From: a virus
Length of the DNA: 24,719 bases
IMG/VR virus record: IMGVR_UViG_3300044630_004365
Coordinates: 1-24,719 of that record
Direction: 5' to 3' (one strand)
In this document: one piece after another, positions 5,701 through 24,719 of the stretch
Numbering within the stretch: the first letter of the stretch is position 1
How the letters are laid out: the number at the start of each line of letters is the position of its first letter
Made by a program: the position numbers and the translations under genes
Notes under the pieces: generated by a model
Told to the model about the DNA's origin: nothing
Databases searched by the model: none
Seen by the model: only the letters and a program-made list of their open reading frames with translations

Positions 5701-5955
5701 ATGGCACACTTTGCTAAACTAGACGAGAACAACAAAGTAATTGAAGTTATTGTAGTATCTAATGATGATATCCTTGATGAAAACGGAGAAGAATCAGAAG
5801 AAATTGGTATTCAATTCTGTAAAATGATTCAAGGAGAAAATACTAACTGGAAGCAAACCTCATATAACGGAAACATTAGAGGAAGATATGCTGGAATTGG
5901 AATGTACTACGACGAAATTATTGATGAATTTGTTTCTATTGTAGGTGATCAATGA
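5701..5955 (+). CDS. Small conserved cyanophage protein of unknown function
   Basis: This encodes 84 residues. It is a recognisable small protein of T4-like cyanophages: it opens MAHFAKLDENNKVIEVIVVS, continues D-D-I-L-D-E-N-G-E-E, and contains the conserved WKQTSYNGNIRGRYAGIGM. Relatives I recall usually continue for another 10-30 residues with a Pro- and Trp-containing tail; this copy ends at IVGDQ, so it looks C-terminally short. It starts two bases after the glycine-rich gene and overlaps the next gene by ATGA. It is very acidic. Its function is unknown; its frequent position beside tail fibre genes suggests a virion or assembly role. Confidence 0.75.
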   Translation: MAHFAKLDENNKVIEVIVVSNDDILDENGEESEEIGIQFCKMIQGENTNWKQTSYNGNIRGRYAGIGMYYDEIIDEFVSIVGDQ

Positions 5956-6569: not shown

Positions 6570-7290
6570 ACAAATACATCAAATCTATCATGTATCAAGA
6601 TGTGGATCTACACTTCTCACATCTTTATTATCTAAAGTATCCAGATCTTATGCAGAACCCAGTTGGTCTTCTTCTTTATTGATTGGAGTGGATCCATATA
6701 AAAATATGAAGTCTTTTTATGGATCTGTTGTTAAATTTCCTAGTATGGTTTCTTGTTTTGAAACGAATTTTCCGGGCAAAAAAGTATTCTTATATAGACC
6801 ACTATCTCAGCATTTATGTAAAATGAAATCTGTAGATGAATTATGGATAGATCATCGTTTAAGCAAAATTGATTATATTTTTAAAAACCATAATCACCCT
6901 TTAATTAGATGGGAACCAAAAGACAATTTGGATAAAATAACATACTTGTGGATTTGTAGTGTTTTTCGTATGTTAGATCATTCTGATGTTTTATGGATAA
7001 AAACAAATGATTTTTTAAAAAATAAAGAAAGTGTTTTAAATGATGTCTGCCATCATTTTGATCTACCAAAAGTAAATGATTTTTCAATTTCAAATATAAA
7101 TGTAAAAAAATCAGGTTTTAATGGTAAAGATGATCCTATAACTGAAATATTACAAAAAGAAAAACTAGAATATACGTTTCCATCTTATGGAGTCATAGAA
7201 ACTGATATGGCTTTATTTGATACTGAAATTTCAGATATTGTTAAATTCATAGAAAATTACTTTGAGGGATTGCGAGAATTTCTATATTAA
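6562..7290 (+). CDS. Sulfotransferase-like P-loop protein
   Basis: This encodes 242 residues. The N-terminus holds YHVSRCGSTLLTSLLS (residues 9-24), which fits the 5'-phosphosulfate-binding loop of PAPS-dependent sulfotransferases (S/P-R-S/C-G-S-T-L-L). A Y-A-E-P motif at 30-33 resembles the SEP element of one sulfotransferase-like family. A strand and loop VFLYRPLSQHL (75-85) matches the 3'-phosphate-binding region with Arg79 and Ser82. The rest is alpha/beta. It overlaps the 2OG-oxygenase gene by 8 bases. Family knowledge suggests transfer of sulfate from PAPS to a hydroxyl group; an oxygenase that adds a hydroxyl next to a sulfotransferase that could cap it is an attractive pairing, but that is inference. 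Related P-loop proteins also include other group-transfer enzymes, so the reaction is not certain. Confidence 0.7.
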   Translation: MSEQIHQIYHVSRCGSTLLTSLLSKVSRSYAEPSWSSSLLIGVDPYKNMKSFYGSVVKFPSMVSCFETNFPGKKVFLYRPLSQHLCKMKSVDELWIDHRLSKIDYIFKNHNHPLIRWEPKDNLDKITYLWICSVFRMLDHSDVLWIKTNDFLKNKESVLNDVCHHFDLPKVNDFSISNINVKKSGFNGKDDPITEILQKEKLEYTFPSYGVIETDMALFDTEISDIVKFIENYFEGLREFLY

Positions 7291-10400: not shown

Positions 10401-12563
10401 AGAAATACTGAATCTTATTTTGGAACAGGAACTCTATTTGGATTAAGCAGCACCACAGAAGCATATTCATTTGTTCCTACAACAGAAGGACTCTTCAGAA
10501 TTTCTGGTTCTGCAGCAGAATCAACAACTCCAACAACAGAAATTGGTTCTGGTTCTATCTTTACCTTTGTTTCTTCTACAGAAACATTTATTGTCAATCC
10601 ACCAGATCAAACTACATTATTCAGTCTTTCTGGATCTGCTGTTGAAAGAAATACAGAATCTTATTTCGGAACAGGAACTCTATTTGGATTCAGCAGCACT
10701 ACGGATTCCGCAATCTTAGCAGAATCCGGAAGTGGTCTGTTCAGAATTTCTGGTTCTGCAGCAGAATCAACAACTCCAACAACAGAAATTGGTTCTGGTT
10801 CTATCTTTACCTTTGTTTCTGCTACAGAAACATTTGCTATCAATCCACCAGATCAAACAACACTCTTTACATTGTTTGGTTCTGCAGTTGAGAAGAACAC
10901 AGAATCTTATTTCGGAACAGGAACTCTATTTGGATTCAGCAGCACTACAGATTCTGCAATTTTGGCAGAAACTGGAACTGGTTTATTCAAATTCTATGGT
11001 TCTGCGACAGATTCAAACACAGAATCTTATGTTGGTACTGGTGTTGCATTTGCATTCCTTGAGGGTGTTCAACTTGATAGTACAGGTAAGATTCGTTATG
11101 TAAGTGGTCAAGAATCTACAACAAGCATACCACCAACATTTGGAACACTATTCAGTGTTTCGGGTGAAGTTAGAATCTTCTTCGAATATAGGGAAACAGG
11201 TTCGGGTGTTGTTCAGTTTGGTGGTGCTGGATTTGCACAACCTTCTGCGAAGCACTTTGGTTCAGGTCAAATTAAAGTTATTGGCAATACCACAGAATCA
11301 ACAAAAGTTGATCGTAGTGGATCTGGATCAATATTTGGATTTGTTTCTGCTACTGAGTCTTCTATTGTTAATCCACCAGAATCAACTGAGCTCTTTAGAA
11401 TTTCTGGTACTTCAATTGAAAAATATACAAGTACATCAGATACTATTGCAGAAATTGCAATTAATGGTTCTGCCAAAATTAGAAGAGTACCTTCAGTAAT
11501 AAGCAAGGGTAAACTAACTCTTTCTGGTTATGGGGAAGAGTCATTTGTTCTTGCTCCATATTCTGGATCTGGAAGAATTAGTACAATTGGTTCCAGTTCT
11601 GATTATAGAACAGTTATTAATCCTCCAGAAGTTGGAACAATTGTACTCTTTAGAGGAACTGCAACTACCAGAGGAATTATTAATTACACTGGTTCTGGTT
11701 CCATCTTTACGTTTGTTTCTTCCACAAAAACAAAATCAAGTACAGAGAAATCGGAAGAACTCTTTAGAATTACTGGTTCTGCTGTCGAGAAGAATACAGA
11801 ATCTTACATTGGAGTTGGAAATCTATTTGAATTTAGTCAGAGACCAATTATTGATTCCAATGGAAAGGTCTCATATGTTGCTGCAGATGAATCTTCAACT
11901 GGAGTTCCACCAACACAAATTGCAGAAACGAGACTCTTTGGATCTGCTGATGTTAGAAAAACTCCTTCGTATGTTGGTTCTGGATCAATCTTTGGATTTA
12001 TCAGCAAAACGGAATCGTTTGGTGCGAATCCACCAGAATCTACAGAACTCTTTAAGATATCTGGAAATTCAATTGAGAAAAATACAGAGGCATACTCTGG
12101 AACTGGATCAATATTCTCATTTGCTTCTTCAGCAGAATCAATTTCGATCAGAACAACAGAACCAACAAGTCTTTTCCGAATTTCTGGTGGAGCAAGCAAA
12201 TTCTCGATCACCAGAGGAAGATACGTTGGTTCTGGTTCAATCTTTACATTCATCAGTTCTTCCGAATCAACTCTTGTTTCTCCACAATCTTCAGGTCTAT
12301 TTGATATTTCTGGATCTGCCAGAATTCGTTCAATTAAATCTGAATTTGGTACTGGTTCAATATTTGCATTCTCAAGTTCAACCGAATCACTTCTTAAGAA
12401 ATATCCAGATTCGGTCGGACTATTTAACATTACTGGATTTGCCTTTGAATCCTTCGCAACTAGTACTTATCTGGGTGATTCTCAAACAATTATTAGAGGA
12501 TCGTCTGTTGATAGAAAGACTGATTATGTTGCACCAAAACCAGTCAGATTGTATATAATATAA
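7410..12563 (+). CDS. Giant repeat fibre protein, VrlC-like
   Basis: This encodes 1717 residues, the largest protein here, almost wholly built from nested repeats. One module starts YSYNESS, then has D-Y-G-F-I, D-Y-G-x-I and D-Y-G-F-I-T-D-N and ends LPFGK. It occurs about five times, near residues 60-115 (divergent), 231-291, 422-484, 635-695 and 847-907; the later three copies recur every 212-213 residues. Between and after these, units of about 40 residues run to the C-terminus with the pattern 'NTESY.GSGSIFTFVSATES......LF.ISGSAVEK', alternating GSGS-aromatic strands with ESxxx loops. This suggests a long beta-rich fibre. Large cyanophage proteins of this kind have been annotated VrlC-like, after a virulence-related locus of Dichelobacter; I make that link from memory and use no symbol. 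There is no signal peptide, membrane segment or cysteine cluster. Long alternate-frame ORFs inside it are shadows of the repeats. Confidence 0.8.
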   Translation: MAVFSYVTGSNNSQSFLISSYADEIISLYANVLISEFEIKIITRSFKFSSNLNEEFISSYNESSRVDYLEITYGSITDSITDSEDYGYITGDIITYDQIENFGTITINRTQTPYGRLHVFQEFSDDSLSRVSVGGVRFALYGRANYEVIFNPLNRAFEIEGSADVPFTKSYVGKGQFTSFIGAADSVGFNPPESALLFRFQGKAETEVIFNERSRILYFDSATEVSKTNNYNETSVVTFSSTDYGFISEVESLYENYGLISEDEDFANWEREDFGFITENETRLPYGKTEFISYTTESTTNPHIGSGSTKIYGEGLGRATPRQLGEGFITLSGTSVDRFRLRYFGSGSAFTFVSGSETTKVETEQEGTIRFTGEAVERYTKGNYNGQSNKDIAIKGVAICEVIFNPIDRFARFLNLEINSRTYSYNESSVVNLEGIDYGFIVESPTLFGDYGNITDLAYYPWEEDDYGFITDNTVNLPFGKATFISGTTESNTENYVGSGSVYITANAKIFVLPKHNGSGIARFIGSAIEKNTEDYVGSGSIFTFVSATESETNAETSKELFQFNGSATEKFGKGLYTGSGSIFAFSSTTESTSTQESSKEIFRFVGSAVEKNTESYVGSGSLFTFFTNQERVTYSYNESSAVRIDSIDYGFINEIPTYFDDYDEITGNPYYPWQRDDYGFITDNQTILPFGKTTFISGTTESNTENYVGSGSVFVSGTANVFVLPKHTGSGYAQFSGEAVEKNTEDYVGSGSIFTFISFTESSSTAETSKELFQFNGSATEKFGKGLYTGSGSIFAFSSTTESESNTQESKGLFKFYGSATDSNTEDYVGSGSLFSFSTNKERVTYSYNQSSVYTFESLDYGFIIESPTLFGDYGSITENPFVPYPENSDYGFITDNQTRIPYGSLNISGTLDSIKIRLNYFGSGSINIDGNAEYAYTPEETGTGLFNITSNPIIKISLLHVGSGSLFSFVGGDESATPAPEIGSGTISIFGSAVERNTESYFGTGTLFGLSSTTEAYSFVPTTEGLFRISGSAAESTTPTTEIGSGSIFTFVSSTETFIVNPPDQTTLFSLSGSAVERNTESYFGTGTLFGFSSTTDSAILAESGSGLFRISGSAAESTTPTTEIGSGSIFTFVSATETFAINPPDQTTLFTLFGSAVEKNTESYFGTGTLFGFSSTTDSAILAETGTGLFKFYGSATDSNTESYVGTGVAFAFLEGVQLDSTGKIRYVSGQESTTSIPPTFGTLFSVSGEVRIFFEYRETGSGVVQFGGAGFAQPSAKHFGSGQIKVIGNTTESTKVDRSGSGSIFGFVSATESSIVNPPESTELFRISGTSIEKYTSTSDTIAEIAINGSAKIRRVPSVISKGKLTLSGYGEESFVLAPYSGSGRISTIGSSSDYRTVINPPEVGTIVLFRGTATTRGIINYTGSGSIFTFVSSTKTKSSTEKSEELFRITGSAVEKNTESYIGVGNLFEFSQRPIIDSNGKVSYVAADESSTGVPPTQIAETRLFGSADVRKTPSYVGSGSIFGFISKTESFGANPPESTELFKISGNSIEKNTEAYSGTGSIFSFASSAESISIRTTEPTSLFRISGGASKFSITRGRYVGSGSIFTFISSSESTLVSPQSSGLFDISGSARIRSIKSEFGTGSIFAFSSSTESLLKKYPDSVGLFNITGFAFESFATSTYLGDSQTIIRGSSVDRKTDYVAPKPVRLYII
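8667..10130 (+). repeat. Long-period tandem repeat, about 636 nt (212 aa) per unit
   Basis: Three successive super-units in the giant gene start at about 8667, 9307 and 9943 with codons for YSYNESS or YSYNQSS. Nucleotide identity is patchy but locally complete: the block beginning TATCAGTGGCACAACAGAAT recurs at 8861 and 9497, exactly 636 nt apart, and stays identical for about 40 nt. The retained nucleotide identity points to recent duplication or gene conversion. Confidence 0.75.
10494..10820 (+). repeat. Direct repeat of about 81 nt at 246-nt spacing
   Basis: The stretch beginning TTCAGAATTTCTGGTTCTGC at 10494 recurs at 10740 and is identical for about 81 nt, through ACCTTTGTTTCT, where TCT changes to GCT. 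The surrounding 246-nt (82-aa) unit, which is two 41-residue repeats, is also strongly similar. This looks like the most recent duplication in the giant gene. Confidence 0.75.
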
Positions 12564-13426: not shown

Positions 13427-16400
13427 ATGGCTGATTTTAGATTAGGAAGACTCAAATTCAACTGGAGAGGTGATTGGGCAGCTAGTACTGCTTATGTCAT
13501 CGACGACATTGTAAAGTTTGGTGCAAATACTTATGTTTGTACTACTAACCATACCTCAACAGCAAATGAAGCAACTTGGTATGCAACCGATTTATCCAAC
13601 TGGTCCTTACAAGCAGAAGGAGTAAGGTCAAGAGGAGAATATTCCAATGGAACTTACTATAAGGTAAACGATCTAGTAAAGTTCGGAAATACTCAATTTA
13701 GAGTATTAACTGGATTTGCTTCTACTGTTGGATTTGCAACTTTTGTTGGCTCTGCATTTGCAACAGAGTATGTCTCTGGATTTCTAAGTGAAGGTCAATG
13801 GAATCCATCAACAGAGTATCAAATCGGTGATGTTATCACTTATAATGGATCATCTTATGTAGCAATTACTACTGCTCCTGCTGGTGAAGTTCCTGTAGAA
13901 TATATTGATACTAAGTGGCAAGTTTTATCCGAAGGTATTAATGGATCAGGCATCTCGACATATTCAGATAACAACACCTATTATAGGGGCGATTTAGTAC
14001 AAATTGGTGGTGATATTTATCGTTTAGTTGTTGGTACTGCCAGTTCTATCAATCCAGTTGGATCTGCATCCACAATATGGGCACCATTTAATACTGGTCT
14101 AAACTATGTTGGTTCATATAATACTACAACAACATATTACAAAGGTAGTGTTGTAGAGTATGCATCATCTTCTTATGTTGGTGTCGGCACACAAGCAATT
14201 TTAAATGTAACACCAGGAACAGACGCATCTAAGTGGGCAGCACTTGCTATTGGAGATTCTAATGCAGTATTGACAACTGCAGGAGATTTGCTTTACAGGG
14301 ATGCATCATCCCCAACAAGATTGGCAATTGGTCATACTGGATATGCATTAGGAGTCTCGACAACTGGAGTTCCAGAGTGGACAGTTATTGGTGATGCAAC
14401 AAGAATTTATTATGTTGACCCAGAAAAGGGATCAGATACTTTCCCTGGACACACTCCAGATCTAGCATTTAGAACTCTAAAATATGCATGTGATAATGCA
14501 AGTGCAATTACCAATATTACTGATTTTACATATGATAGACATACTGGCATTTCAACTATTACTGCACCAGCACACGGAATTCTATATCCAAACATTACCA
14601 TTAAATTAGCAAACATCGAATTCGAATGTTTAAGTGGTGGTAGAGCATATTCAGTTTCTGGATTCCAATACGATAAAGCAAGTGGAATCTCTACTGTAAC
14701 TGTTTCTGGTACTCTTAGTGGAATTACTACAGGTACTGTGGTAAGGCTAAAGAATTTGGAGTTTACTTGCCCAGGCGGATCTGGCATTACAACAACATTC
14801 TTCCCAGATGGAACACAAGGATATAATTTCACCGTAACAAGTGTTACAGGTGGATCTTCATTTATTATTAATGTTGGAATTTCAACAATTACTCACATCT
14901 ATGTTTCTGGTGGTACTGCATTTGTTGGAGTTGATACTACTATATTCCCACGATCGGTTGCATCCTCATTCTTCACTGTAGATGAGATTGTAGATAATAA
15001 CACTATTAAAGTTAATGTTGGTGTTTCTACAATTGACCACACCTATGTTGGCGGAGGTTCGGTAATTAACCTATCTCCAGCAGTTATTAGACTATCTGCT
15101 TCAGAATTTGCAGAGCAACTTCCAATTCTTGTTCCAGCATTTACAACCATTGTTGGAAACAGTTTGAGAGCATCTAAGATTCGTCCCGCTTCGGGAATCT
15201 CTACTGATGGAATTACTCCAAACAATAGACAGACAATGTTTAAATTGTCTGATGCAACTACAATTCAGGGTCTAAACGTATCTGGTCTTGTTGGATTTAA
15301 CTACGATGAAGATCACCCATATGAATTAGACTATACCACAGTAAGAACTGGTTTGGGTACTACTGCTTGTGGTGTTTACTTTGCATTTAACGAAAGTTCC
15401 CCAATTATAACAAAATCACCTTACGTTAAGGATTGTACTTCTTTTGGTGATCCTGCAACTGATGGAACAGGTGCTGGTGCTGGTGTTGGTGTATTCATGG
15501 ATGGTGCATTGCATGATACTGGTGCAAAATCAATGGTATTTGATGCATTCACAAACGTTCTGAGTGATGGTGCTGGATTTATTCTCGATAAGGACTGCTT
15601 GGCAGAAATCGTTTCCTGCTTCACCTACTATACTAAGTGGGGATATTATGCTGGTGGTGGTTCAAGAATCCGTTCAGTTGGTGGTAATAACTCTTATGGT
15701 GATTATGGTGTTATCGCATCTGGATTCTCAACCGCAGAAACTGCAAGAAGTGGAAGAGTATTTGGAGATAGACTAGATATTGCTGTTGGTTCCCAAACAG
15801 GAACAATCAGTGTTGGCAATACAATGGTTGGTACAACATCAGGTGCAAGAGCAACCTTGATTAATGACCAGATTCCATCCGAGAGAATTTACTTCAAGTA
15901 TTGGCCAGGTTATGGCAATGTCGGTCTTGGAACAACAGGTTTCATTGACGGAGAAACTATTGACTTCATTGGTGCTGGAACTACTGGAGCAATTAGAGTT
16001 GCATCTGCAACAAGTTCAATTTCTGGACAAAAGGGTGTTCTTATTGAATTGGATCTAATTGATGTCAATAATCCACCATTGGTTGGAGATGCAATTGGAT
16101 TTACAACTAGTGCATACGGTGAAGATAAAGTTAATGGGGAACCAAGATACTACATTATCAATACGGTAACTGGTATTACAACTTCTATTACTATCAATAG
16201 AGGATATGATGGTCTCGCACCTGTAACATATACAGGAAGAGCAACTGTTAGAATCTCCCCAGAGAAGACGGTTGGTACTTATGATAGCAGAACTGGAGTA
16301 GGAACTGATATTAATGCTGGTGGATCACTGGTAGATATTAGAACAAGATTCTCCAATGCTAGATTAACTGGTCACGACTTCCTCTCAATTGGTACTGGAA

Positions 16401-17176
16401 ATAAAGTTGAAACTGGATATCCAAACGTTAATGAAGCAAATATTGCTCAAGGAAATGAAACCAACGTATTTGGACCAGGTAAAGTATTCTTCGTTTCAAC
16501 TGACCAAGGTGGTAACTTCCGTGTTGGTGAATTCTTCTCTGTTAACCAGTTAACTGGTGCTGCTACACTCGATGCTACTGCATTCAACCTTTCTGGTTTG
16601 AGTGAACTAAGACTGGGTGCTATTGGTGGTCAGGTTGGTGAAGCAATTAACGAGTTCTCATCTGATGAGACTATGAGTGGAAATTCTAACTCTGCTTGCC
16701 CAACTGAGTATGCAGTTGTTGGATACCTCAAGAGAGGTGGAATGGGTGTTGATGCAATGCTCCCACCTGTTGGAACTACAGCACAAAGACCAGATACACC
16801 ACTAGTTGGTATGTTGAGATACAACTCAACAAAAGGAAATTATGAGACTTGGAACGGCACTGCTTGGATTCCAGTTGGTGGATTCTTGAATAACGTTGAT
16901 GTATCAACAACATATACTGCATCTGCATTTGAACTTCTATGGTGTAATACTTCTGGTGGCGGATTCACAGTCACACTTCCTTCATCACCAAGCAAAGGTG
17001 ATGTAATTAGATTCGTTGATGTTGCAAATACTTTCGATTCAAGCAATCTAACCATTGCAAGAAACGGAAAACTAATTGGTGGTCTCGCAGAAAATATGAC
17101 AGTTAATACAGAAGGTGCTGCATTTGATCTCATCTTCTATAATGATACATACGGATGGAGAATCTTCACAGTATAA
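13427..17176 (+). CDS. Large tail fibre or tailspike-like protein
   Basis: This encodes 1249 residues, with AAGGA ahead of the ATG. Residues about 13-240 hold five short modules of the type 'W...T.Y..GD.V...G..Y.C/V', for example DWAASTAYVIDDIVKFGANT, resembling carbohydrate-binding modules of the CBM5/12 kind. Residue 328 onward begins YYVDPEKGSDTFPGHTPDLA followed by F-R-T-L-K-Y-A, the usual entry to a right-handed beta-helix in phage tailspikes. The helix region contains two related insert units ('F.V..V......I.VNVGVSTI.H.YV.GG') and a long Gly/Ala/Asn-rich middle. Residues about 1018-1151 hold the fibre motifs GKVFFVSTDQGGNFRVGEFF and LVGMLRYNSTKGNYETWNG. Residues 1152-1249 form the terminal domain shared with the gene at 12601. 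No catalytic residues of a depolymerase can be assigned by eye. It is likely a host-glycan-binding fibre; hydrolysis is possible but unsupported. Confidence 0.8.
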   Translation: MADFRLGRLKFNWRGDWAASTAYVIDDIVKFGANTYVCTTNHTSTANEATWYATDLSNWSLQAEGVRSRGEYSNGTYYKVNDLVKFGNTQFRVLTGFASTVGFATFVGSAFATEYVSGFLSEGQWNPSTEYQIGDVITYNGSSYVAITTAPAGEVPVEYIDTKWQVLSEGINGSGISTYSDNNTYYRGDLVQIGGDIYRLVVGTASSINPVGSASTIWAPFNTGLNYVGSYNTTTTYYKGSVVEYASSSYVGVGTQAILNVTPGTDASKWAALAIGDSNAVLTTAGDLLYRDASSPTRLAIGHTGYALGVSTTGVPEWTVIGDATRIYYVDPEKGSDTFPGHTPDLAFRTLKYACDNASAITNITDFTYDRHTGISTITAPAHGILYPNITIKLANIEFECLSGGRAYSVSGFQYDKASGISTVTVSGTLSGITTGTVVRLKNLEFTCPGGSGITTTFFPDGTQGYNFTVTSVTGGSSFIINVGISTITHIYVSGGTAFVGVDTTIFPRSVASSFFTVDEIVDNNTIKVNVGVSTIDHTYVGGGSVINLSPAVIRLSASEFAEQLPILVPAFTTIVGNSLRASKIRPASGISTDGITPNNRQTMFKLSDATTIQGLNVSGLVGFNYDEDHPYELDYTTVRTGLGTTACGVYFAFNESSPIITKSPYVKDCTSFGDPATDGTGAGAGVGVFMDGALHDTGAKSMVFDAFTNVLSDGAGFILDKDCLAEIVSCFTYYTKWGYYAGGGSRIRSVGGNNSYGDYGVIASGFSTAETARSGRVFGDRLDIAVGSQTGTISVGNTMVGTTSGARATLINDQIPSERIYFKYWPGYGNVGLGTTGFIDGETIDFIGAGTTGAIRVASATSSISGQKGVLIELDLIDVNNPPLVGDAIGFTTSAYGEDKVNGEPRYYIINTVTGITTSITINRGYDGLAPVTYTGRATVRISPEKTVGTYDSRTGVGTDINAGGSLVDIRTRFSNARLTGHDFLSIGTGNKVETGYPNVNEANIAQGNETNVFGPGKVFFVSTDQGGNFRVGEFFSVNQLTGAATLDATAFNLSGLSELRLGAIGGQVGEAINEFSSDETMSGNSNSACPTEYAVVGYLKRGGMGVDAMLPPVGTTAQRPDTPLVGMLRYNSTKGNYETWNGTAWIPVGGFLNNVDVSTTYTASAFELLWCNTSGGGFTVTLPSSPSKGDVIRFVDVANTFDSSNLTIARNGKLIGGLAENMTVNTEGAAFDLIFYNDTYGWRIFTV

Positions 17177-17179
17177 TCC

Positions 17180-17222
17180 AAATCTTCCTGGAAAGTACAA
17201 TAAATACTTTCCAGGAAGATTT
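17180..17222 (+). terminator. Strong hairpin terminator, 18-bp perfect stem
   Basis: The left arm 17180-17197 (AAATCTTCCTGGAAAGTA) pairs perfectly with the right arm 17205-17222, around a 7-nt loop CAATAAA. A T-rich stretch TTATTTTAT follows. It starts 4 nt after the stop of the 1249-aa fibre gene. The length of the stem is unusual for this window. The octamer AATAAATA at 17199-17206, spanning loop and stem, matches the NATAAATA late core; this may be coincidence. Confidence 0.85.
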
Positions 17223-17241: not shown

Positions 17242-17249
17242 TATAAGTA
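17242..17249 (+). promoter_or_regulatory. Possible late promoter (TATAAGTA, one mismatch)
   Basis: TATAAGTA differs at one base from TATAAATA. It lies 20 nt downstream of the strong terminator and 21 nt before the ATG of the first Cys-rich gene. A new promoter is expected here because the preceding transcript should stop at the hairpin. Confidence 0.4.
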
Positions 17250-17270: not shown

Positions 17271-18053
17271 ATGGCAACTTACGGAAGTTATAAAAAAATA
17301 GTAACTGATCAAATTATAGACGGCACTGTACCCAGATCCAAACTGGGTCCAGGGGGAGGACCACAATACAATGTTTTTTGGGTTTACGGTTCTCCTGGAT
17401 CTTGCACATCTGGGTGTTGTTGCTTATGGACAGTTCCTTCTGGAGTGAAGAGAGTTACTTTTGAACTTTGGGGTGCTGGAGGAAATGGTAATGGCGCATG
17501 TTCATGTGCAAGATGCCACCACTACTTTGGGGCTCAAGGTGGATACTATAATACAAAGACAATTGGAACTGCTCCGGGTTGCCAATATACAATATGTGCA
17601 GGTGGGGTTTTTCCTTGTCTTTCTATTGAATGCACTGCATGTAATGGTTGTAGTTCATATGTTAATGGATATAATTTAAGTAATTTTTGTGCAGAAGGTG
17701 GAGCAACTGGTTGTGCAAATACTGCTTGGTCAACAGGTTGTTTCTCTGAGTGGGGTAGAGGTTGTGTAGGTCCAGGATCATGGAATGGTGATTTTACTAT
17801 GGGAAATCATGCTGGTGCTCCGCATGGAAATGAATTTTGCCATTGTTTAGACAACATGTTCTGTACAACTGGGGCACCATTTTTGAGTGGTGGTGGATCT
17901 CATGGATTCTTGGAAGAATGCTGGATTCGTTGCGGTTGTTGGACTGTTCAATATGGTTCTGGCGGGCAATCTGCTATGACTACATATTGTGGATCTTGCT
18001 GTGGGCAAGGCGGGACAGGTGGATCTGGTGTAGTTAAAATTACATACGTATAG
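17271..18053 (+). CDS. Cysteine- and glycine-rich protein, paralogue 1 of 3
   Basis: This encodes 260 residues, 26 of them Cys. The N-terminus MATYGSYKK is shared with the two downstream genes. Cysteines cluster as CTSGCCC (45-51), CSCARC (77-82), a C-x4-C pair (104, 109), C-x4-C-x2-C-x2-C (116-127), single residues at 140, 148, 157 and 165, then 190/192/198, CWIRCGC (217-223) and CGSCC (240-244). The scaffold is that of a glycine-rich tail-tip domain: VKRVTFELWGAGGNGNG near residue 60-75 and a closing GGTGGSGVVKITY at the C-terminus, as in the Cys-free protein at 4844. No signal peptide or membrane segment is seen. The Cys pattern matches no metallothionein, zinc-finger or ferredoxin arrangement I know. 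A virion-surface role, with disulfides or bound metal stabilising glycine-rich loops, is inference. This copy lacks Cys43 and the CC pairs at 116-117 and 163-164 of its paralogues. Confidence 0.8.
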   Translation: MATYGSYKKIVTDQIIDGTVPRSKLGPGGGPQYNVFWVYGSPGSCTSGCCCLWTVPSGVKRVTFELWGAGGNGNGACSCARCHHYFGAQGGYYNTKTIGTAPGCQYTICAGGVFPCLSIECTACNGCSSYVNGYNLSNFCAEGGATGCANTAWSTGCFSEWGRGCVGPGSWNGDFTMGNHAGAPHGNEFCHCLDNMFCTTGAPFLSGGGSHGFLEECWIRCGCWTVQYGSGGQSAMTTYCGSCCGQGGTGGSGVVKITYV

Positions 18054-18061
18054 GAAAAAAA

Positions 18062-18859
18062 ATGGCAACTTACGCAAGTTACAAGAAATTGGTTGCTGAT
18101 AATATCAGTGCCCAAACATTTGTGGATTCACACTTCGCTGCAGGATCTCCATTAGCATATGGAGTAAAGTGGTTTTTCGGACAACCATGCACATGTTCCA
18201 CTGGATGCTGCTGTTTATGGTCAGTTCCATCTGGAGTAAACCGACTTCATATTGAATTATGGGGTGCTGGTGGAGGTGGACATGGGCAATGTTCTTGCGG
18301 AAGATGCCACCACTTCAAAGGAGCTGGTGGTGGATATTATAATTCAAAAACTATTGCAACTTCTCCTGGTTGCCAATATACAATATGTGCGGCAGGAAAT
18401 GGTATTTGCTGTAGACAAGAGTGTGTTGGATGTAATGGATGTAGTTCGTATGTTAATGGATATAATTTGAGTAATTTTTGTGCTCTTGGTGGTATGCCAG
18501 GATGCGGAGAAACTAGCTGGGGAGAGAAGTGTTTTGGTGCATGGCAATGCTGCTTGGCTCCAGGAAACAATGGTGGTGATTTTGGGTTTGGCACTCAAGA
18601 TCCACCATTTGGGGGAGCAGAATTTGTGTATGATAGGGGAAGATGCCATTGCTACAACCAAGCAATTTTTACAGGTTCTGCACCATTAATTGGTACATAT
18701 TCAGGACAATCCTTAAGAGAATGCTGGATTCGTTGTGGATGTTGGACAGTTCCTTATGGTCATGGTGGACAAGGCGCTATGGGAACTTATTGTGGTTCTG
18801 GTGCATGTGGTCAAGGGGGAATGGGTGGACCAGGACTTGTAAGAATTACTTATTTCTAA
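18062..18859 (+). CDS. Cysteine- and glycine-rich protein, paralogue 2 of 3
   Basis: This encodes 265 residues, 27 of them Cys. It starts nine bases after paralogue 1, with AGGA overlapping that gene's stop as the ribosome site. It opens MATYASYKKL, diverges at residues 11-34, then aligns without gaps to paralogue 3 from residue 35 to about 170. Shared elements are CTCSTGCCCLW (43-53), RLHIELWGAGGGG, CSCGRC (77-82), GCQYTICA, GICCRQECVGCNGC (114-127), SSYVNGYNLSNFC, and the identical CWIRCGCWTV (221-230). The region around residues 171-215 is variable in length and sequence, as expected for a loop or receptor-contact region. The C-terminus is MGGPGLVRITYF. It is likely a structural protein related to the glycine-rich adhesin group; the function is unproven. 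Confidence 0.8.
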   Translation: MATYASYKKLVADNISAQTFVDSHFAAGSPLAYGVKWFFGQPCTCSTGCCCLWSVPSGVNRLHIELWGAGGGGHGQCSCGRCHHFKGAGGGYYNSKTIATSPGCQYTICAAGNGICCRQECVGCNGCSSYVNGYNLSNFCALGGMPGCGETSWGEKCFGAWQCCLAPGNNGGDFGFGTQDPPFGGAEFVYDRGRCHCYNQAIFTGSAPLIGTYSGQSLRECWIRCGCWTVPYGHGGQGAMGTYCGSGACGQGGMGGPGLVRITYF

Positions 18860-18864
18860 TAAAT
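18857..18864 (+). promoter_or_regulatory. Possible late promoter box (AATAAATA) before paralogue 3
   Basis: AATAAATA begins on the stop codon of paralogue 2 and ends 13 nt before the ATG of paralogue 3, with AGGA at 18864-18867 between. The spacing leaves little or no leader, so it may be fortuitous. Confidence 0.25.
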
Positions 18865-18877
18865 AGGATAAAAAACA

Positions 18878-19663
18878 ATGGCAACATATAGAAGTTATAA
18901 AAAAATTAATGGTTCTATCTTACCAGATAGTTTTATAACCAGTAGCATGATATCCAACAATGCATTTGCAACCTGGAATGTGAAATGGTTTTTCGGAGAA
19001 CCATGTGCATGTTCCACTGGATGCTGCTGTCTATGGCAAGTTCCAACTGGAGTATCCAGAATGTATATTGAAATGTGGGGTGGTGGAGGTGGTGGGCATG
19101 GTAGCTGCAACTGCAGTAGATGCCAAAATTATATTGGTGCTCAGGGTGGATACTATAATGCAAAAATGATAGATACTACTCCAGGGTGTCAATATACAGT
19201 GTGTGCTGGCGGAAATAGCAATTGCTGCAGATTGGAGTGTACTGGATGTTACGGGTGTACATCATTTGTAAATGGTTATAATTTATCAAACTTTTGTGCT
19301 ATTGGCGGAGCTCCAGGATGTGCTATCGGATCTTGGGATATGACATGTTTTTCTGAGTTTCCATGTTGTTTAGGTCCAGGGGCCAATGGTGGTGATTTTG
19401 GAATGGGAAATCATGCTGGTGGATCTTGGAGACCACTTGGTGTATTCTGCCATTGTCATGGAAAATGGGCATACCCAACAGCAGCACCATTTATTGGAAC
19501 TAATGTAAGGCAGGTTCTACACAGTTGCTGGATTCGTTGTGGATGTTGGACAGTTCCTTATGGTCATGGTGGACAAGGTGCTATGACCAATGTTTGTGGT
19601 TCTTCTTGCTGTGGTCAAGGGGGAATGGGTGGACCAGGATTAGTTAAAATAAGTTATGTTTAA
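18878..19663 (+). CDS. Cysteine- and glycine-rich protein, paralogue 3 of 3
   Basis: This encodes 261 residues, 28 of them Cys, the highest of the three. It begins MATYRSYKKI. Conserved Cys positions are 43, 45, 49-51, 77, 79, 82, 104, 109, 116, 117, 121, 124, 127, 140, 148, 157, 163 and 164, the same numbering as in paralogue 2, followed by 191, 193, 217, 221, 223, 240, 244 and 245. The WGGGGGGHG and MGGPGLVKISY segments are the glycine-rich scaffold ends. Differences concentrate in residues 11-34 and 170-215. The exact retention of Cys while the other residues drift points to selection on the cysteines. The gene is followed by a late promoter and a new unit. The role is inferred to be a virion surface component; alternatives are a metal-binding or redox-active protein delivered with the particle. 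Confidence 0.8.
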   Translation: MATYRSYKKINGSILPDSFITSSMISNNAFATWNVKWFFGEPCACSTGCCCLWQVPTGVSRMYIEMWGGGGGGHGSCNCSRCQNYIGAQGGYYNAKMIDTTPGCQYTVCAGGNSNCCRLECTGCYGCTSFVNGYNLSNFCAIGGAPGCAIGSWDMTCFSEFPCCLGPGANGGDFGMGNHAGGSWRPLGVFCHCHGKWAYPTAAPFIGTNVRQVLHSCWIRCGCWTVPYGHGGQGAMTNVCGSSCCGQGGMGGPGLVKISYV

Positions 19664-19710: not shown

Positions 19711-20403
19711 ATGTCAGATTACATTTCAGTAGAATTTGATTTAGAGTTACCCAATGAATTCTTAGTGGATCATAGCACCACAGAAGGGAAAACTCGTAAG
19801 TTCACTTATCATGGACCAGATAAAATTTGGTTGCAAATTGGAGAAGACGGGAGAGAATCCCATGGACCATTAACAGCAGAAGATATTGCTGATGGTAGAC
19901 CAGTTCCAGCAGACGTAGTGGAGTGGCATGAAGTAGATTGTAGTAAAAACCCATTAATCTGCCAATTGAGGGGTCCAGTTGTTAATGAACTTCAGGAATC
20001 TAGAAATGATTTAGATGCAGTCATTCACCCAGGATCCCCAAAAATTGAAGGGTATCCCCAATTTTCATATCAAGTCCCACTTATTCCTGATGACATTTAT
20101 AATAGATATTCTGTAAAATTAATTGATGGTGAATTAGTTATAGATAGATGGACTGTTGAGAAAAAACTTTTAGATAAAGAAGAATTTTTAACTTGGGATG
20201 ATATTAGAGATCATAGAAATAGACTTCTTGACGGATCTGATGGTAAAGTGACTGAAGATATGCCAGAAGATTTGAAGCAGCAATGGAAAGAATATAGACA
20301 AAAATTGAGAGATCTTCCCGATATCATGCAATCTAATGGAGTAGAACCATCAATTGCTTTCTATATGTTCCCGGAAAACCCAACACCAGTACGAGCAAAT
20401 TGA
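19711..20403 (+). CDS. Tail assembly chaperone-like virion protein
   Basis: This encodes 230 residues, behind its own late promoter and GAGGA ribosome site. The C-terminal part (about residues 161-204) reads W-D-D-I-R-D-H-R-N-R-L-L-D-G-S-D, then WKEYRQKLRDLPDIMQ. This matches the pattern of the phage tail assembly chaperone domain (R..RN.LL..SD ... W..YRQ.LRDLP) found at the end of many tail-fibre-associated proteins. The N-terminal part (about 1-110) is beta-rich, with FTYHGPDKIWLQIGEDGRES, and is not recognised. The tail-chaperone motif is often a C-terminal module of fibre-linked proteins in cyanophages. The gene is transcribed as a single unit, as shown by promoter and terminator. A role in fibre or tail assembly is likely from family knowledge. 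Confidence 0.7.
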   Translation: MSDYISVEFDLELPNEFLVDHSTTEGKTRKFTYHGPDKIWLQIGEDGRESHGPLTAEDIADGRPVPADVVEWHEVDCSKNPLICQLRGPVVNELQESRNDLDAVIHPGSPKIEGYPQFSYQVPLIPDDIYNRYSVKLIDGELVIDRWTVEKKLLDKEEFLTWDDIRDHRNRLLDGSDGKVTEDMPEDLKQQWKEYRQKLRDLPDIMQSNGVEPSIAFYMFPENPTPVRAN

Positions 20404-20481: not shown

Positions 20482-21081
20482 ATGTTTAAATTAAATCAAA
20501 ACTTAAAAGTAAAAATTAATACTATTGATAAAAAAATTTTCTTTGTCATTGACAATTTTTATGAAGACCCAGATAAAGTACGGGAATATGCAAAAAATTC
20601 TAAAAAGCATACAAACTCAGATCTTTTGGCGGGAGCAATTGGTAGAAGAGTATGCGAAGACGATTTGAGATTATCATATTATATGAAAGATGTTTTCGAA
20701 GAATTGTGTATGCATCCTAAATGGCATGTAGTGTTTGACAAAAATCATCATAATTATAAATGGTCTGCAATGAGATTCATGGTAAATGTTACTAATAATT
20801 TAGAAATAATAGCAGATGGTAGAAAAAATATTGAACATTTAGATGGTCCATTGAATAAATGGGCATGTGTTGTTTATTTAAACACTCCAGAAGAATGTGA
20901 AGGGGGAACAGAATTTTACCAATGGGATGGAGATTTTAATACTAAACCAATCCCAAAATATACAGTTAATATGAAATATAATAGAGCAATATTATATGAT
21001 GCAAATATGGTTCATGGAGCAGTGATGAAATCACATATGTTTAAATCCTGCGATAGACTAGTACAGGTAATGTTCATGTGA
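20482..21081 (+). CDS. DUF6445-like putative 2OG-Fe(II) oxygenase
   Basis: This encodes 199 residues. The HxD...H...R pattern of 2-oxoglutarate/Fe(II) enzymes can be read: His119 and Asp121 in IEHLDGPLNKWACVVYLNTP, then EGGTEFYQW, a strand N-R-A-I-L-Y-D-A-N-M-V-H with His178, and Arg192 near the end. The 'H.DG..KWA.VVYLNTP.EC.GGT.FY' string is the hallmark of a family often labelled DUF6445, whose activity is not established as far as I know. The start at 20482 is used because an ATG eight bases earlier runs into a stop at once. It is the first gene after the terminator and precedes the glycosyltransferase, so a role in tailoring a sugar or fibre is possible. It differs from the oxygenase at 5952 in sequence, so the window has two distinct enzymes of this fold. 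Confidence 0.75.
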   Translation: MFKLNQNLKVKINTIDKKIFFVIDNFYEDPDKVREYAKNSKKHTNSDLLAGAIGRRVCEDDLRLSYYMKDVFEELCMHPKWHVVFDKNHHNYKWSAMRFMVNVTNNLEIIADGRKNIEHLDGPLNKWACVVYLNTPEECEGGTEFYQWDGDFNTKPIPKYTVNMKYNRAILYDANMVHGAVMKSHMFKSCDRLVQVMFM

Positions 21082-21087
21082 TAAATA
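21080..21087 (+). promoter_or_regulatory. Possible late promoter (GATAAATA)
   Basis: GATAAATA overlaps the stop codon of the upstream oxygenase-like gene and lies 34 nt before the ATG at 21122, with GAGG at 21111-21114 as a ribosome site. The spacing is similar to the exact late promoters at 1932 and 19666. It is a reasonable candidate to start the glycosyltransferase-carbamoyltransferase-nucleotidyltransferase unit. Confidence 0.5.
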
Positions 21088-21121
21088 TATCAGTTAGTGA
21101 TTGTTTAACTGAGGTTATCGA

Positions 21122-22261
21122 ATGAGGTCTAAAGCATTTTTTATTAATGGTGGAGCTGGCAGAGTAATTTGCTCCATCCCTGCATTTGAAAAGTATGCAG
21201 AAACCCATGATGATTTTATAATCGTCTGTGAGGGGGGAACAGATTTCTATAAAGGGCATCCCACTCTACACAATAAAGTATTTGATAGTTGGCATAAAGG
21301 ATTGTTTGAAAAGGAAATTAAACATCGTGATTGCGTAAGTCCAGAGCCATATAGACTTTGGGAATACTACAATCAAAAGTGCAATTTGTCTCAAGCATTT
21401 GATATAATAATTAATGGGTTAGATGAGCCCAGAGAACTTCCTGACCCAAAAATTATTTTAAATAAGATGGAACTTCTATCTGGATATAACATGATAGAAG
21501 AAGTTAAAGCAGGAACAGGAAAAGATAAAGTTTTAATTGTTCAACCCTTTGGTAGGTCAATTCAACAAGTTGGGCAAGATTTTATTGCAGATACAACTTC
21601 TCGCAGTTTTCCGTTAAATTCAATAGTAGAAATTATTAATGAATTGAAAAAGGACTATGCAATTATAATAATGAGTGAACTTTATTTTCCTCTAGAAAAT
21701 AATGAAGATAAATCAAAACATAAAGTTGCAAGGCCACAAATAACTGATATGAGGTTATGGGCAAGTTTAATTAATGCGGCAGACCACTTTTTGGGGTGTG
21801 ATAGCATGGGACAACATATTGCAAAATCATTTGGAAAGACTGCTACTGTTGTTCTTGGATCGACATATCCAGAAAATATTTCATATCCCAATTCAAAAGA
21901 TTTTGACATAATAGACATTGGAAAGAATAAAAGAAAATATAGTCCAATACGAATTTCAATAGATGATGAAATTGATAGATATAATGACGAATCCCTAGAA
22001 ATGACGAATGAAGAAGTGCAAAAAGTGATTAGTACTGTAAAAAAAAGATTGGGCAAATCCGTTGCATATACTGGTAATTGGAAACCAACAGAACAAGTAA
22101 GTTCTTCCTGTTGTCCTCCACAATTAAATTCAACTCCAAGTATGCCAGTATTAATCAATACTACTTCTACACAAAATAAAGCATTATTACCAAAAGAAAA
22201 TAGGGGATTTTCCCCAGATTTAGAAAAAGAAATTAAAAATGTTTTAAAGAATACTAAGTGA
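21122..22261 (+). CDS. GT9-like (heptosyltransferase-type) glycosyltransferase
   Basis: This encodes 379 residues. The layout is that of a GT-B fold: an N-terminal strand and loop (FFINGGAGRVICSIPAFEKY, residues 7-26) like the 'G.GD.I...P....L' opening of ADP-heptose:LPS heptosyltransferases (family GT9), a central strand VLIVQPFGRS, and a C-terminal donor-side motif DHFLGCDSMGQHIAKSFGKT starting near residue 221, comparable to the 'vVg.DTG..HlAaA.gkptv.lfG' signature. The Thr of that signature is replaced by Ser-Met. After about residue 325 comes a non-family tail rich in Ser, Pro, Asn and Thr (VSSSCCPPQLNSTPSMP) and a short terminal helix. The neighbouring genes supply candidate activated-heptose enzymes. 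The likely role is transfer of a sugar to a glycan; donor and acceptor are inferred only. Confidence 0.65.
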   Translation: MRSKAFFINGGAGRVICSIPAFEKYAETHDDFIIVCEGGTDFYKGHPTLHNKVFDSWHKGLFEKEIKHRDCVSPEPYRLWEYYNQKCNLSQAFDIIINGLDEPRELPDPKIILNKMELLSGYNMIEEVKAGTGKDKVLIVQPFGRSIQQVGQDFIADTTSRSFPLNSIVEIINELKKDYAIIIMSELYFPLENNEDKSKHKVARPQITDMRLWASLINAADHFLGCDSMGQHIAKSFGKTATVVLGSTYPENISYPNSKDFDIIDIGKNKRKYSPIRISIDDEIDRYNDESLEMTNEEVQKVISTVKKRLGKSVAYTGNWKPTEQVSSSCCPPQLNSTPSMPVLINTTSTQNKALLPKENRGFSPDLEKEIKNVLKNTK

Positions 22262-22274
22262 GGAATAATTAAAA

Positions 22275-24068
22275 ATGACTCAATGGATTGCTGCCATTGC
22301 CAGAGGGCATAATTCTGGTGTTTGTTTATTAAAAGATGGTGAGTTAGTTTTATCTATAGAAGAAGAGCGTTTATCTAGAGCAAAATATGATGGCGGACCA
22401 TTAGCATCAATGGTTAAGATACTCGAATATACCGATAAACTTGATTATTTGGTTATCGCACATACGCAACCTTTAAGTGATGCTGGAAAAATTGATTTTT
22501 CTGGTGATGACATTTATACAGGTCTTGCAAGAAAACTTGGATTAATTGACAGAAACCAAGAAAACTATAATCATCCGCAGGTTATTGATTTAAGTAGAAA
22601 TCACCATAAACTTCATGCTGCATGTGCATTTTATCGTTCTGGATTTGAGAGTGCTGTATCTTTAGTTGTAGATGGTGCTGGTACTTTTATTCCAATGCAA
22701 ATTGGAAGAAATAATGAAATGACTTGGGAACTTGAATCCATTTTTAGTTGTGAATATCCAGCAGATTTTAAAACATTATACAAACATCAAGCAGGAAGAG
22801 GTCCATGGGCATCTGCAAGGATTGAAAAATTCCCAAGTGAGCAAGAAGGAGAGGATGGATTCCATGAATTGATTATTGATGATTCTGCTGGTATTACTAA
22901 AGCATATGAAGCAGTAACTCAATATTGTGGTTGGCCTCCTATTGAAGCAGGTAAAACTATGGGATTATTCCCTTACGGGAAACCAAATGATAATATTCCT
23001 GCAATCTATACTGATGGTAATGGTGGTAGTTGGAAGACTTCTGATCGAAATGTTATTATTCCAACTTATCCTAACGGTGCATTAGTTAATGAAGGTAGAT
23101 ACGAATTTCTTAGAACACCACAAGAATTTGATGATCTAACACTTCTTGAGAATCGTCGTGATATGGCATATGCCATTCAAACACAATCACAACAAATGGT
23201 TCTTGATTTAATTCGTAAGGCAGTTGAAATGACTGGAAATAATAATGTAGTTATTTCTGGCGGATATGGTCTTAATTGTGTTGCAAACTATTGGTATCTT
23301 GAGCAACTTAAAGATGAAAACATTAATCTTTATGTTGAACCAGTAAGTAATGATGCCGGAACTGCTATCGGAGCTGCATTATTATGGCATCATAAAATTA
23401 ATGAAGATATTGAAGTAAAACAAAAAATTGAAACTCTTTATACTGGACCAAGTTATATGTATAGTCAACAAGAAATTAATCTAATAATACAAAAATACGA
23501 TGCGACAGAAGTGGCATCTGCATCCTATGAGGATGTTATTGATTTAATCATGGACAAAAATATTGTTGCATTATTTCAAGGAAGGTCAGAAGCTGGTCCT
23601 AGAGCACTTGGTAATCGTTCTATTCTCTATGACCCAAGAGATCCAGATGGTAAAGATCATGTAAATCGAATTAAGAGAAGAGAATATTTTAGACCGTTTG
23701 CTGGATCTATTCTGCAAGAACATGTTCATGATTGGTTTGATCTTAGGGGAATGGAAGATTCTCCGTTTATGATGTATGCAGTAAACTGTAAAGAAGGAGT
23801 AGAAGAAAAAATTCCTGCCATTATTCACGTTGATGGAACTTGCAGAATTCAAACTGTTACACAAGAACAGAATTTGCACTATTATAATTTGATTAATACT
23901 TTTTACGAAAAAACTGGTTGTCCAATTATTTTTAATACTTCATTCAATCTTGGAGGAGAGCCTTTGGTTGAAACTCTTGACGATGCTGTAAGAACTCTTG
24001 CTAATAGTTTAATTGAATATTTGTATTTGCCAGAGTACGAATTGCTCATAAAGATGGAAAATAATTAG
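22275..24068 (+). CDS. Carbamoyltransferase, NodU/CmcH/TobZ family
   Basis: This encodes 597 residues, the usual full length. The N-terminal Kae1-like domain is clear: RGHNSGVCLLKDGELV with His12, SIEEERLSRAKYDGG, the metal-binding HHKLHAA with His110 and His114, and the DGAGT loop at 133-137. Further on are EAGKTMGLFPYGKP and the ISGGYGLNCVAN and PVSNDAGTAIGAA nucleotide-site loops. The YrdC-like C-terminal domain has LFQGRSEAGPRALGNRSIL, RREYFRPFAGSI and FNTSFNLGGEPLV. The family makes carbamoyl-adenylate from carbamoyl phosphate and ATP and passes the carbamoyl group to a hydroxyl of a sugar or antibiotic. Carbamoyltransferases have been reported from cyanophage genomes, and placement beside sugar enzymes points to carbamoylation of a surface or fibre glycan. 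Motifs look intact. AGGA at 22261-22264 precedes the ATG. Confidence 0.95.
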   Translation: MTQWIAAIARGHNSGVCLLKDGELVLSIEEERLSRAKYDGGPLASMVKILEYTDKLDYLVIAHTQPLSDAGKIDFSGDDIYTGLARKLGLIDRNQENYNHPQVIDLSRNHHKLHAACAFYRSGFESAVSLVVDGAGTFIPMQIGRNNEMTWELESIFSCEYPADFKTLYKHQAGRGPWASARIEKFPSEQEGEDGFHELIIDDSAGITKAYEAVTQYCGWPPIEAGKTMGLFPYGKPNDNIPAIYTDGNGGSWKTSDRNVIIPTYPNGALVNEGRYEFLRTPQEFDDLTLLENRRDMAYAIQTQSQQMVLDLIRKAVEMTGNNNVVISGGYGLNCVANYWYLEQLKDENINLYVEPVSNDAGTAIGAALLWHHKINEDIEVKQKIETLYTGPSYMYSQQEINLIIQKYDATEVASASYEDVIDLIMDKNIVALFQGRSEAGPRALGNRSILYDPRDPDGKDHVNRIKRREYFRPFAGSILQEHVHDWFDLRGMEDSPFMMYAVNCKEGVEEKIPAIIHVDGTCRIQTVTQEQNLHYYNLINTFYEKTGCPIIFNTSFNLGGEPLVETLDDAVRTLANSLIEYLYLPEYELLIKMENN

Positions 24069-24091
24069 ACAAAAAATTATATTATTATTCC

Positions 24092-24499
24092 ATGAAAAAA
24101 ATATTTGTAAACGGAACATTTGATGTTCTCCATACGGGACATCTTTTGTTATTTGAATATGCAAAATCTTTTGGAGATTATTTAATTGTTGCGATAGATT
24201 CCGACGAGAGAGTTAAAGAAAAGAAAGGTCCAACAAGACCAATTAATTCTCTCGAAGATCGTGCTTTTATGTTATCTAATTTGTACCATGTTGATGAAGT
24301 CAGAACATTTGGTTCTGATATGGACTTGAAAAATCTTGTTAAATATTATAAACCAGATATAATGATAGTGGGTTCTGATTGGAAGGGAAAACCAGTTATC
24401 GGGTCAGAATATGCAAAAGAATTAAAATTTTTTGATAGGATAAATGAATACTCAACAACAAAAACAATTGAAAATATTATTAATAGGAGAAACTTGTGA
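24092..24499 (+). CDS. Heptose-1-phosphate adenylyltransferase-like cytidylyltransferase-family protein
   Basis: This encodes 135 residues. It has the complete nucleotidyltransferase signature: FVNGTFDVLHTGHLLLFEYA with the HxGH motif at 14-17, then the GPTRPINSLEDRAFMLSNL segment, VGSDWKGKPVIG, and STTKTIE at 121-127. The family includes glycerol-3-phosphate cytidylyltransferase (TagD) and the C-terminal domain of HldE/RfaE, which adenylates heptose 1-phosphate. The R-P-I-N-S-x-x-D-R and STTK elements, and above all the overlapping downstream HldE-kinase-like gene, favour the heptose assignment. There is no fused kinase as in E. coli HldE. The 3' end overlaps the next gene by 56 bases. No clear ribosome site is seen upstream. 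Confidence 0.8.
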   Translation: MKKIFVNGTFDVLHTGHLLLFEYAKSFGDYLIVAIDSDERVKEKKGPTRPINSLEDRAFMLSNLYHVDEVRTFGSDMDLKNLVKYYKPDIMIVGSDWKGKPVIGSEYAKELKFFDRINEYSTTKTIENIINRRNL

Positions 24500-24719
24500 G
24501 GATATAAGTATCTATGGTTCTGTAGATAGAATTAGTCCAGAAGCACCAGTTCCCATATTAGATTATAAAAAAAAGATATCTTCTCTTGGAATGTCTGCAA
24601 ATGTAAAGAATAATCTTGAGTCATTTGGAGTATTCGTCAATCATATAACAAATAAAAAATTGATAAAAAAGACAAGAATAGTAGATATCAATTCTAATCA
24701 GCAATTGATCAGAATTGAT
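24444..24719 (+). CDS. RfaE/HldE-type PfkB sugar kinase, N-terminal fragment (3' end outside window)
   Basis: From the ATG at 24444 an open frame of 92 codons runs to the right edge with no stop. It reads LKILLIGETCEDISIYGSVD, then R-I-S-P-E-A-P-V-P-I-L-D and SSLGMSANVKNNLESFG. This parallels the HldE N-terminal kinase ('V.V.GD...D.Y..G...RISPEAPVPV ... LGGAANV..N...LG'), which phosphorylates heptose 7-phosphate at C1. The Gly-Gly of the PfkB signature is Gly49-Met50 here, a variant I recall in some RfaE-like kinases of bacterial glycan loci. The gene begins inside the last 56 bases of the adenylyltransferase gene, with AGGA at 24437-24440 close to the ATG. The catalytic Asp of PfkB kinases lies in the missing C-terminal part. 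Confidence 0.8.
   Translation, partial: MNTQQQKQLKILLIGETCEDISIYGSVDRISPEAPVPILDYKKKISSLGMSANVKNNLESFGVFVNHITNKKLIKKTRIVDINSNQQLIRID

Follow-up and report, generated by a model that had tools for sequence, protein, structure and literature searches.

Three tandem cysteine-rich proteins as a probable receptor-binding tail-fibre tip in T4-like cyanophages

The tail fibre gp24 of the cyanobacterial myophage Pam3 is a homotrimeric receptor-binding protein that has TNF-like and glycine-rich receptor-binding domains, works with a dedicated chaperone, gp25, and resembles an ALK domain (PMC9608196). Glycine-rich motifs with hypervariable receptor loops are also found at the end of the long tail fibre of T-even phages, in the adhesin gp38 (S16, T2, PP01; polyglycine II, PGII; PMC12892980 and references therein). 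In the virophage DSLV2, three consecutive tail genes form a heterotrimer whose three subunits co-purify (PMC12724248), and in Agrobacterium phage Milano a disulfide network was described in the tail of the extracellular particle (PMC10811340). Here we describe three tandem genes for cysteine (Cys)-rich proteins in a 24.7-kb stretch of viral DNA, positions 1-24,719 of the IMG/VR virus record IMGVR_UViG_3300044630_004365 (hereafter the window), which we compare with these systems and with their relatives in other marine phages. The three genes are as follows.

17271-18053, + strand: Cys-rich copy 1 (slot 1), 260 amino acids with 26 Cys; matches phrog_4205 at E 2.9e-51.
18062-18859, + strand: Cys-rich copy 2 (slot 2), 265 amino acids with 27 Cys; the AlphaFold2 model has the Pam3 fibre as its best PDB match.
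18878-19663, + strand: Cys-rich copy 3 (slot 3), 261 amino acids with 28 Cys; matches phrog_4205 at E 5.8e-55.

These open reading frames (ORFs) and Cys counts are those of the original prediction, an earlier reading of the same DNA, and every Cys motif quoted there was present. Copies 1-3 contain about 10% Cys, compared with a mean of 0.74% in the other 19 genes of the window (53/7178 residues), and binomial tails of 3e-21 to 1e-23 against this background show that the density is not due to chance. Glycine accounts for a further 53 of the 265 residues (20%) of copy 2. Between residues 43 and 164, copy 2 and copy 3 have their Cys at the same positions (20/20), and identity between the two drops to 19-40% in 20-residue bins across residues 1-40 and 181-220; the earlier reading had given the same 20 positions and had placed divergent zones in these parts of the proteins.

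We propose that the three proteins form the receptor-binding distal tip of the tail fibre of a T4-like cyanophage. It is highly probable that copies 1-3 are tail-fibre receptor-binding adhesins, and hetero-assembly of the three is favoured with less confidence; for adhesin identity together with hetero-assembly we estimate a probability of about 0.55. In the proposed mechanism, a short slot-specific N-terminal segment probably docks each chain to the fibre and registers it with its partners, and would be followed by a TNF-like beta-sandwich and then by distal loops that carry Cys among lattice-type glycines, the kind that form a lattice in other adhesins of the same fold. The late-expressed chains would fold with the help of the product of the adjoining chaperone-like gene, and the paralogues would probably assemble 1:1:1 as one heterotrimer at the fibre end. 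A single mixed tip is suggested because the genes come as exactly three, or as two in one branch, in more than 150 related sequences. Disulfides would form by oxidation after lysis, when the virion passes from the reducing cytoplasm into oxic seawater, and would staple the loops, with the receptor-facing loops staying free to vary.

All three copies belong to PHROG 4205, with profile matches over the full length (E 2.9e-51, 3.6e-50 and 5.8e-55 over 257-264 residues). PHROG 4205 and PHROG 35878, to which a P-SSM2 relative belongs, are unannotated clusters of unknown function. The homologue search that had been suggested with the original prediction recovered relatives of 54-59% identity in S-SSM7, S-SSM6a and Sf-FS3, more distant ones in S-CAM1, S-CAM3, P-SSM2 and P-SSM5, and others on hundreds of IMG/VR contigs; the gene order of the window agrees with that of the T4-like cyanophages S-SSM7 and Sf-FS3. 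The collected set comprised 656 member ORFs in 242 loci, totals that include repeat counts where loci on one contig overlap, and was divided into groups A (PHROG-4205-like), B (S-CAM1/3-like) and C (P-SSM2-like). All 656 members were Cys-rich (4.9-12.4%, median 10%), partly through selection bias, as two of the three scans used Cys-containing motifs, the group-B scan mostly not. Such values among so many relatives mean that a high Cys density is not peculiar to the window phage. In a scan of 84,980 prokaryotic species only five contigs of metagenome-assembled genomes (MAGs) were found, and a cellular origin was rejected because four of them are phage contigs with the array; the fifth (L245) was without a confirmed family member. 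The four array-bearing contigs (L242, L243, L244 and L246) were binned as Actinomycetota, Flavobacteriales, Rhodobacteraceae and Euryarchaeota, likely by mis-binning. The annotated gene SSSM7_117 of S-SSM7 (16347-16676 of locus L004) lies mostly out of frame inside the third Cys-rich gene and is probably spurious.

Likeness to glycine-rich adhesins was found at the level of both domain and fold. Copies 2 and 3 matched Gly_rich_2 (PF21722) at 27.8 and 25.4 bits, both above the curated cut-off of 24.3 bits; copy 1 had no match to this domain in the Pfam search. The AlphaFold2 model of copy 2, built on 122 related sequences, had a mean predicted local distance difference test score (pLDDT) of 83.7 and a predicted template modelling score (pTM) of 0.81, with low confidence at the N terminus (30 residues) and in some loop segments. 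Foldseek returned the Pam3 tail fibre as its best PDB match (7ypx_A, E 3.9e-7, template modelling (TM) scores 0.50/0.53), followed by Pam3 7yfw, then the Bxb1 tail tip and then the ALK/LTK glycine-rich domain. S16 gp38 was not in the top 50 Foldseek PDB matches of this model, and PDB sequence searches with the single sequence and with a 122-row profile gave nothing meaningful. The glycine-rich phage tail-tip scaffold of the original prediction is supported by Gly_rich_2 in copies 2 and 3, by the Pam3 matches and by the gene neighbourhood. The locus resembles Pam3 gp24/gp25 (7ypx, 7yfw) in the predicted TNF-like sandwich and distal glycine-rich loops, the probable Tfa-type chaperone and the cyanobacterial myophage context. 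Pam3, however, has one fibre protein, a homotrimer with 39% Gly in its distal domain, whereas the window has three genes with about 20% Gly and 10% Cys in their products, loops built of Gly and Cys instead of Gly alone, and an N-terminal segment unlike that of Pam3; the accessible part of the Pam3 report does not mention Cys-richness (PMC9608196). Because of the lower Gly content, the copies may work like gp24 as a variant rather than as a typical member. The T-even gp38, a single gene product that caps the gp37 trimer, differs from the three-gene array (PMC12892980).

The number of copies is almost invariable in two of the three groups. Among loci in which all members are whole, exactly three copies were found in 81/81 of group A and 70/71 of group B (151/152 together), and three were also present on the four phage contigs binned in MAGs. 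Group C mostly has two copies, which are parted by the chaperone gene. In L227, L228, L230, L233 and L239 the array runs to about six Cys-rich genes, seemingly as two triplets in tandem; some members there are too divergent for the profile, and the labels depend on the threshold. The original prediction had taken the copies for ordinary paralogues, and the near-universal rule of exactly three slots in groups A and B went unseen. A tree of 156 proteins sorted the copies by position, with 4 label changes against a shuffled mean of 74, and the group B tree likewise needed 2 label changes against 35 when shuffled. When copy 1 was constrained as one clade, the likelihood was better than that of the free search, and the approximately unbiased (AU) test gave no rejection (p-AU 0.73). 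In a joint tree the group-A copies form one clade and the group-B copies another, so either two triplications or one triplication with later homogenisation in A would account for them, and the design with three chains may have more than one origin.

Gene conversion was seen in the clade of L039, L051, L075, L055 and L082, where copy 3 groups with copy 2 and has been largely overwritten by it. Copy 3 of this clade retains W33, N/C34, T63, F209, V/I265 and the slot-3 loop 181-200. Because these slot-3 residues survived the overwriting, we read the pattern as selection that keeps three different subunits in three defined places. C79 and C249 were lost in all three copies of the same clade. Three consecutive related genes of similar length, conserved as a set across the lineage and here with orthologous slots, are likewise found in DSLV2, whose authors relate its tail proteins to Synechococcus phage fibres; DSLV2 differs in that it is a virophage rather than a tailed phage and its proteins are T4 gp37-tip-like, with no mention of Cys- or Gly-richness (PMC12724248). 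The same data bear on the best-surviving alternative, which we consider unlikely: that each gene gives rise to a homotrimeric adhesin with a separate receptor specificity, in which case the phage has three tips and not one mixed tip. Homotrimers are usual for phage fibres, and the best structural match, Pam3 gp24, is one (PMC9608196). The pair of genes in group C and the strong divergence of residues 181-220, which differ most between the copies as different ligands would predict, also fit this explanation. Separate homotrimers nevertheless predict a varying number of genes, which is not what was seen in the A and B loci, where even six genes appear as two triplets, and the similar lengths, the single shared chaperone gene and the slot residues that outlasted conversion fit one complex better.

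Cys is the most conserved residue type of the family (mean column identity 0.90, compared with 0.88 for Trp and 0.68 for Gly). Over 63 close pairs, the ratio of nonsynonymous to synonymous substitutions (dN/dS), a check proposed with the original prediction, was 0.01 at Cys codons, 0.19 at Gly codons and 0.17 elsewhere; dN alone, which sidesteps the inflated dS of two-fold codons, was 0.008 at Cys codons against 0.06. The Cys are thus under selection. Cys-enriched proteins with conserved Cys are likewise found among the virion structural proteins of Milano, with 2.1% Cys in sheath, tube, baseplate and attachment regions; here the proteins are presumably structural, and 10% Cys is reached in a presumed tip (PMC10811340). 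At positions 104 and 134, exactly one Cys was present in 144/156 chains and two in 0/156. An aromatic residue, His counted, stood on the other side in 141 of the 144 chains: C104 occurred with Tyr, His or Phe at 134 in 97/156 chains (plus 3 with Gln), and W104 with C134 in 44/156. The two positions shifted in opposite directions in about 9/13 independent pairs and never in the same direction. In the copy 2 model, strands 105-110 and 129-133 flank a loop and positions 104 and 134 should face each other across the predicted hairpin, so the swap pattern also supports the model. Cys at 45/117 and at 117/248 also tended to exclude each other.

Most of the Cys are probably engaged in disulfides, which would be the best explanation of the Cys. 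The original prediction that the proteins become disulfide-locked after lysis is compatible with these results and would be the likeliest reason for the Cys, although Cys parity lends it no support; its suggestion that they are secreted-like was not supported. Attempts to derive disulfide pairs from Cys parity or co-loss were given up, as parity was uninformative and the co-variation consisted of mutually exclusive swaps rather than clear pairs. A search for a viral thiol oxidase (Erv/ALR) gave no match, and its control was likewise empty, which makes it uninformative. We suggest only tentatively that the tip is a true heterotrimer of paralogues in which the Gly lattice of such adhesins has become a covalent lattice of Gly and Cys, closed by disulfides only once the virion has been released into oxic water.

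That the Cys instead serve as metal ligands appears improbable. On this view Fe, Zn or Cu would be bound at the tips, which might, for instance, imitate a metal complex and thereby exploit a receptor for metal uptake on the host, in a cyanophage version of the 'Ferrojan horse'. In its favour, the presence of iron in phage tails has been put forward by others, and the high Cys density comes with CxxC, CxC and CxxCxxC spacings. The CxxCxxC motif (C121/C124/C127) is near-invariant in group A, but its conservation is 0.29/0.11/0.71 in groups B and C, which disfavours an Fe-S or zinc site there, not every metal. A different set of metal ligands is possible, with eight other Cys (45, 77, 82, 140, 157, 195, 197 and 249) staying at a conservation of at least 0.83 in groups B and C. 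Searches of the window proteins found no metal-binding Pfam or PDB relative, and Cys trades sides with Trp/Tyr at 104/134. The metal-binding decorations offered in the original prediction are weakened by the missing match to a metal-binding family and by a motif that is not conserved across the superfamily.

Rather less probable again is that free thiols act in adsorption, either by exchanging disulfides with proteins on the host surface or by sensing redox state and so setting off irreversible binding. The lack of a parity constraint leaves room for some free Cys, and glutaredoxin genes were present in 5/5 isolate genomes checked, but also in 13/14 control genomes (they are common in bacteria). 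Positions 104 and 134, where the swap occurs, are at the foot of framework strands and not in the variable loops, and 20 or more free thiols would be expected to oxidise in seawater.

The array lies between a tail-fibre gene (F) and a probable chaperone gene (h), and the remaining features of this part of the window are as follows.

13427-17176, + strand: tail-fibre gene (F), phrog_9851 tail fiber at E 3.5e-273; it precedes the Cys-rich (K) genes in most loci.
17180-17222, + strand: terminator-like 18-bp perfect hairpin followed by a T-rich tail, from a terminator scan; it separates F from the K operon.
17242-17249, + strand: TATAAGTA, late-promoter-like, resembling the T4-type TATAAATA, about 20 nt before the start codon of copy 1.
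19711-20403, + strand: probable tail-fibre assembly chaperone (h), 230 amino acids, with C-terminal PF16778 at E 9.1e-10 and matches to phrog_9740 and phrog_4912, tail fiber assembly.

F is likely the fibre that the Cys-rich proteins cap. The T4-type late promoter is TATAAATA, and in group A this element stands upstream of copy 1 in 13/55 loci, of copy 2 in 0/56 and of copy 3 in 0/56; it was not seen before copy 1 in group B. A hairpin comparable to that of the window precedes copy 1 in a minority of loci only. Gaps of 8, 18 and 47 nt separate copies 1 and 2, copies 2 and 3, and copy 3 and the chaperone gene, and the copies and the chaperone gene therefore look like one late operon in the window. 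The presence of PF16778 in 19711-20403 parallels the dedicated chaperone of Pam3, and a chaperone-like gene follows the array in groups A and B. The AlphaFold2 model of the candidate was confident (pLDDT 94.8) yet had no significant PDB fold match, so the proposed role rests on PF16778, the PHROGs and position.

The gene order fibre-K-K-K-chaperone is near-universal, and over 150 loci carry K genes flanked by fibre and chaperone genes. In the pelagiphage Mosig, the same fibre gene is followed by a Gly_rich_2 protein with little Cys (4 residues in 516 amino acids), which indicates that the site is an adhesin site and Cys-richness an elaboration. Very Cys-rich proteins also stand at the fibre-tip position in the marine virus AG-345-P14 (L249, about 5117-5965), in L197 (7665-8360) and in L227 (1691-2689 and 4770-5852); with 7-10% Cys, they match neither Pfam, PHROGs nor the Gly/Cys profile. 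Because such non-matching proteins are similarly Cys-rich there, Cys-richness may be selected on the tip itself, irrespective of fold. That the copies are intracellular Cys-rich proteins that merely lie in a tail-fibre locus is very improbable, given the Gly_rich_2/Pam3 fibre fold, the position between fibre and chaperone, the Cys-poor adhesin-like protein at the same place in Mosig and the late-promoter-like element before copy 1.

Several observations weigh against a three-part adhesin tip held by disulfides. The Pam3 match is only moderate (root-mean-square deviation 6.1 Å, 18% identity), and with two copies in group C the rule of three different chains is not superfamily-wide. Cys counts are even in only 27-32/52 chains per slot and in 21/52 triplets, and because they are so often odd, not every Cys can be disulfide-paired within the complex. 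This lack of even counts and the gene pairs of group C are the chief objections. Cys co-variation between copies, which links copies 1 and 3 at C34 and copies 2 and 3 at position 248, amounts to 2-5 independent changes and is non-significant after correction, and a semblance of co-evolution could be produced by gene conversion. The phages whose virion proteomes Sullivan 2010 summarises (S-SM1, S-PM2 and Syn9) are not among the family carriers found.

Elsewhere in the window, a second Gly_rich_2 protein (4784-5698, E 2.5e-15) offers a Cys-free contrast to the array in the same phage; its long ORF overlaps the previous gene, and it has 28% Gly if started at 4844. A highly repetitive protein of 1717 amino acids (7410-12563) with GSGSIFTFVSATES-like repeats had no Pfam match above the cut-off, and its position suggests a structural protein. 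The product of 6562-7290, which starts with SEQIHQIYHVSRCGSTLLTSLL, is reminiscent of a sulfotransferase P-loop and had no Pfam match. Downstream of the array, 20482-24719 holds a cluster with DUF6445/2OG-Fe(II)-oxygenase-like, carbamoyltransferase and cytidylyltransferase genes, a kinase-like start and a glycosyltransferase-looking protein without a Pfam match; a similar sugar cluster lies downstream of the array in S-SSM7, S-CAM1, S-CAM3 and P-SSM2. A 'cysteine dioxygenase' in this neighbouring cluster was considered as a link to Cys and rejected, being a cupin-domain protein; S-SM2, reported with the same 'cysteine dioxygenase' gene cluster, had no match to the Cys-rich family.

No description of Cys-rich cyanophage tail proteins was found in the literature searched. 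The original prediction that the proteins may be an undescribed class holds in that no function is recorded and we found no account of their Cys-richness; PHROG 4205 and PHROG 35878 are catalogued, however, and the fold is known. The fold and role class are already known, and the obligatory three slotted paralogues and the proposed Gly/Cys lattice are, as far as the literature searched shows, undescribed. Most receptor-binding proteins of marine cyanophages are unidentified, and an adhesin role, if true, would give a likely function to an abundant uncharacterised family found in hundreds of IMG/VR loci and in P-SSM2, S-SSM7 and S-CAM1. A heterotrimeric tip, if true, would depart from the usual homotrimers of phage fibres and would explain the fixed three-gene set, and a disulfide lattice formed after release would allow chains produced in a reducing cytoplasm to yield an adhesin that is highly stable and still has variable loops.

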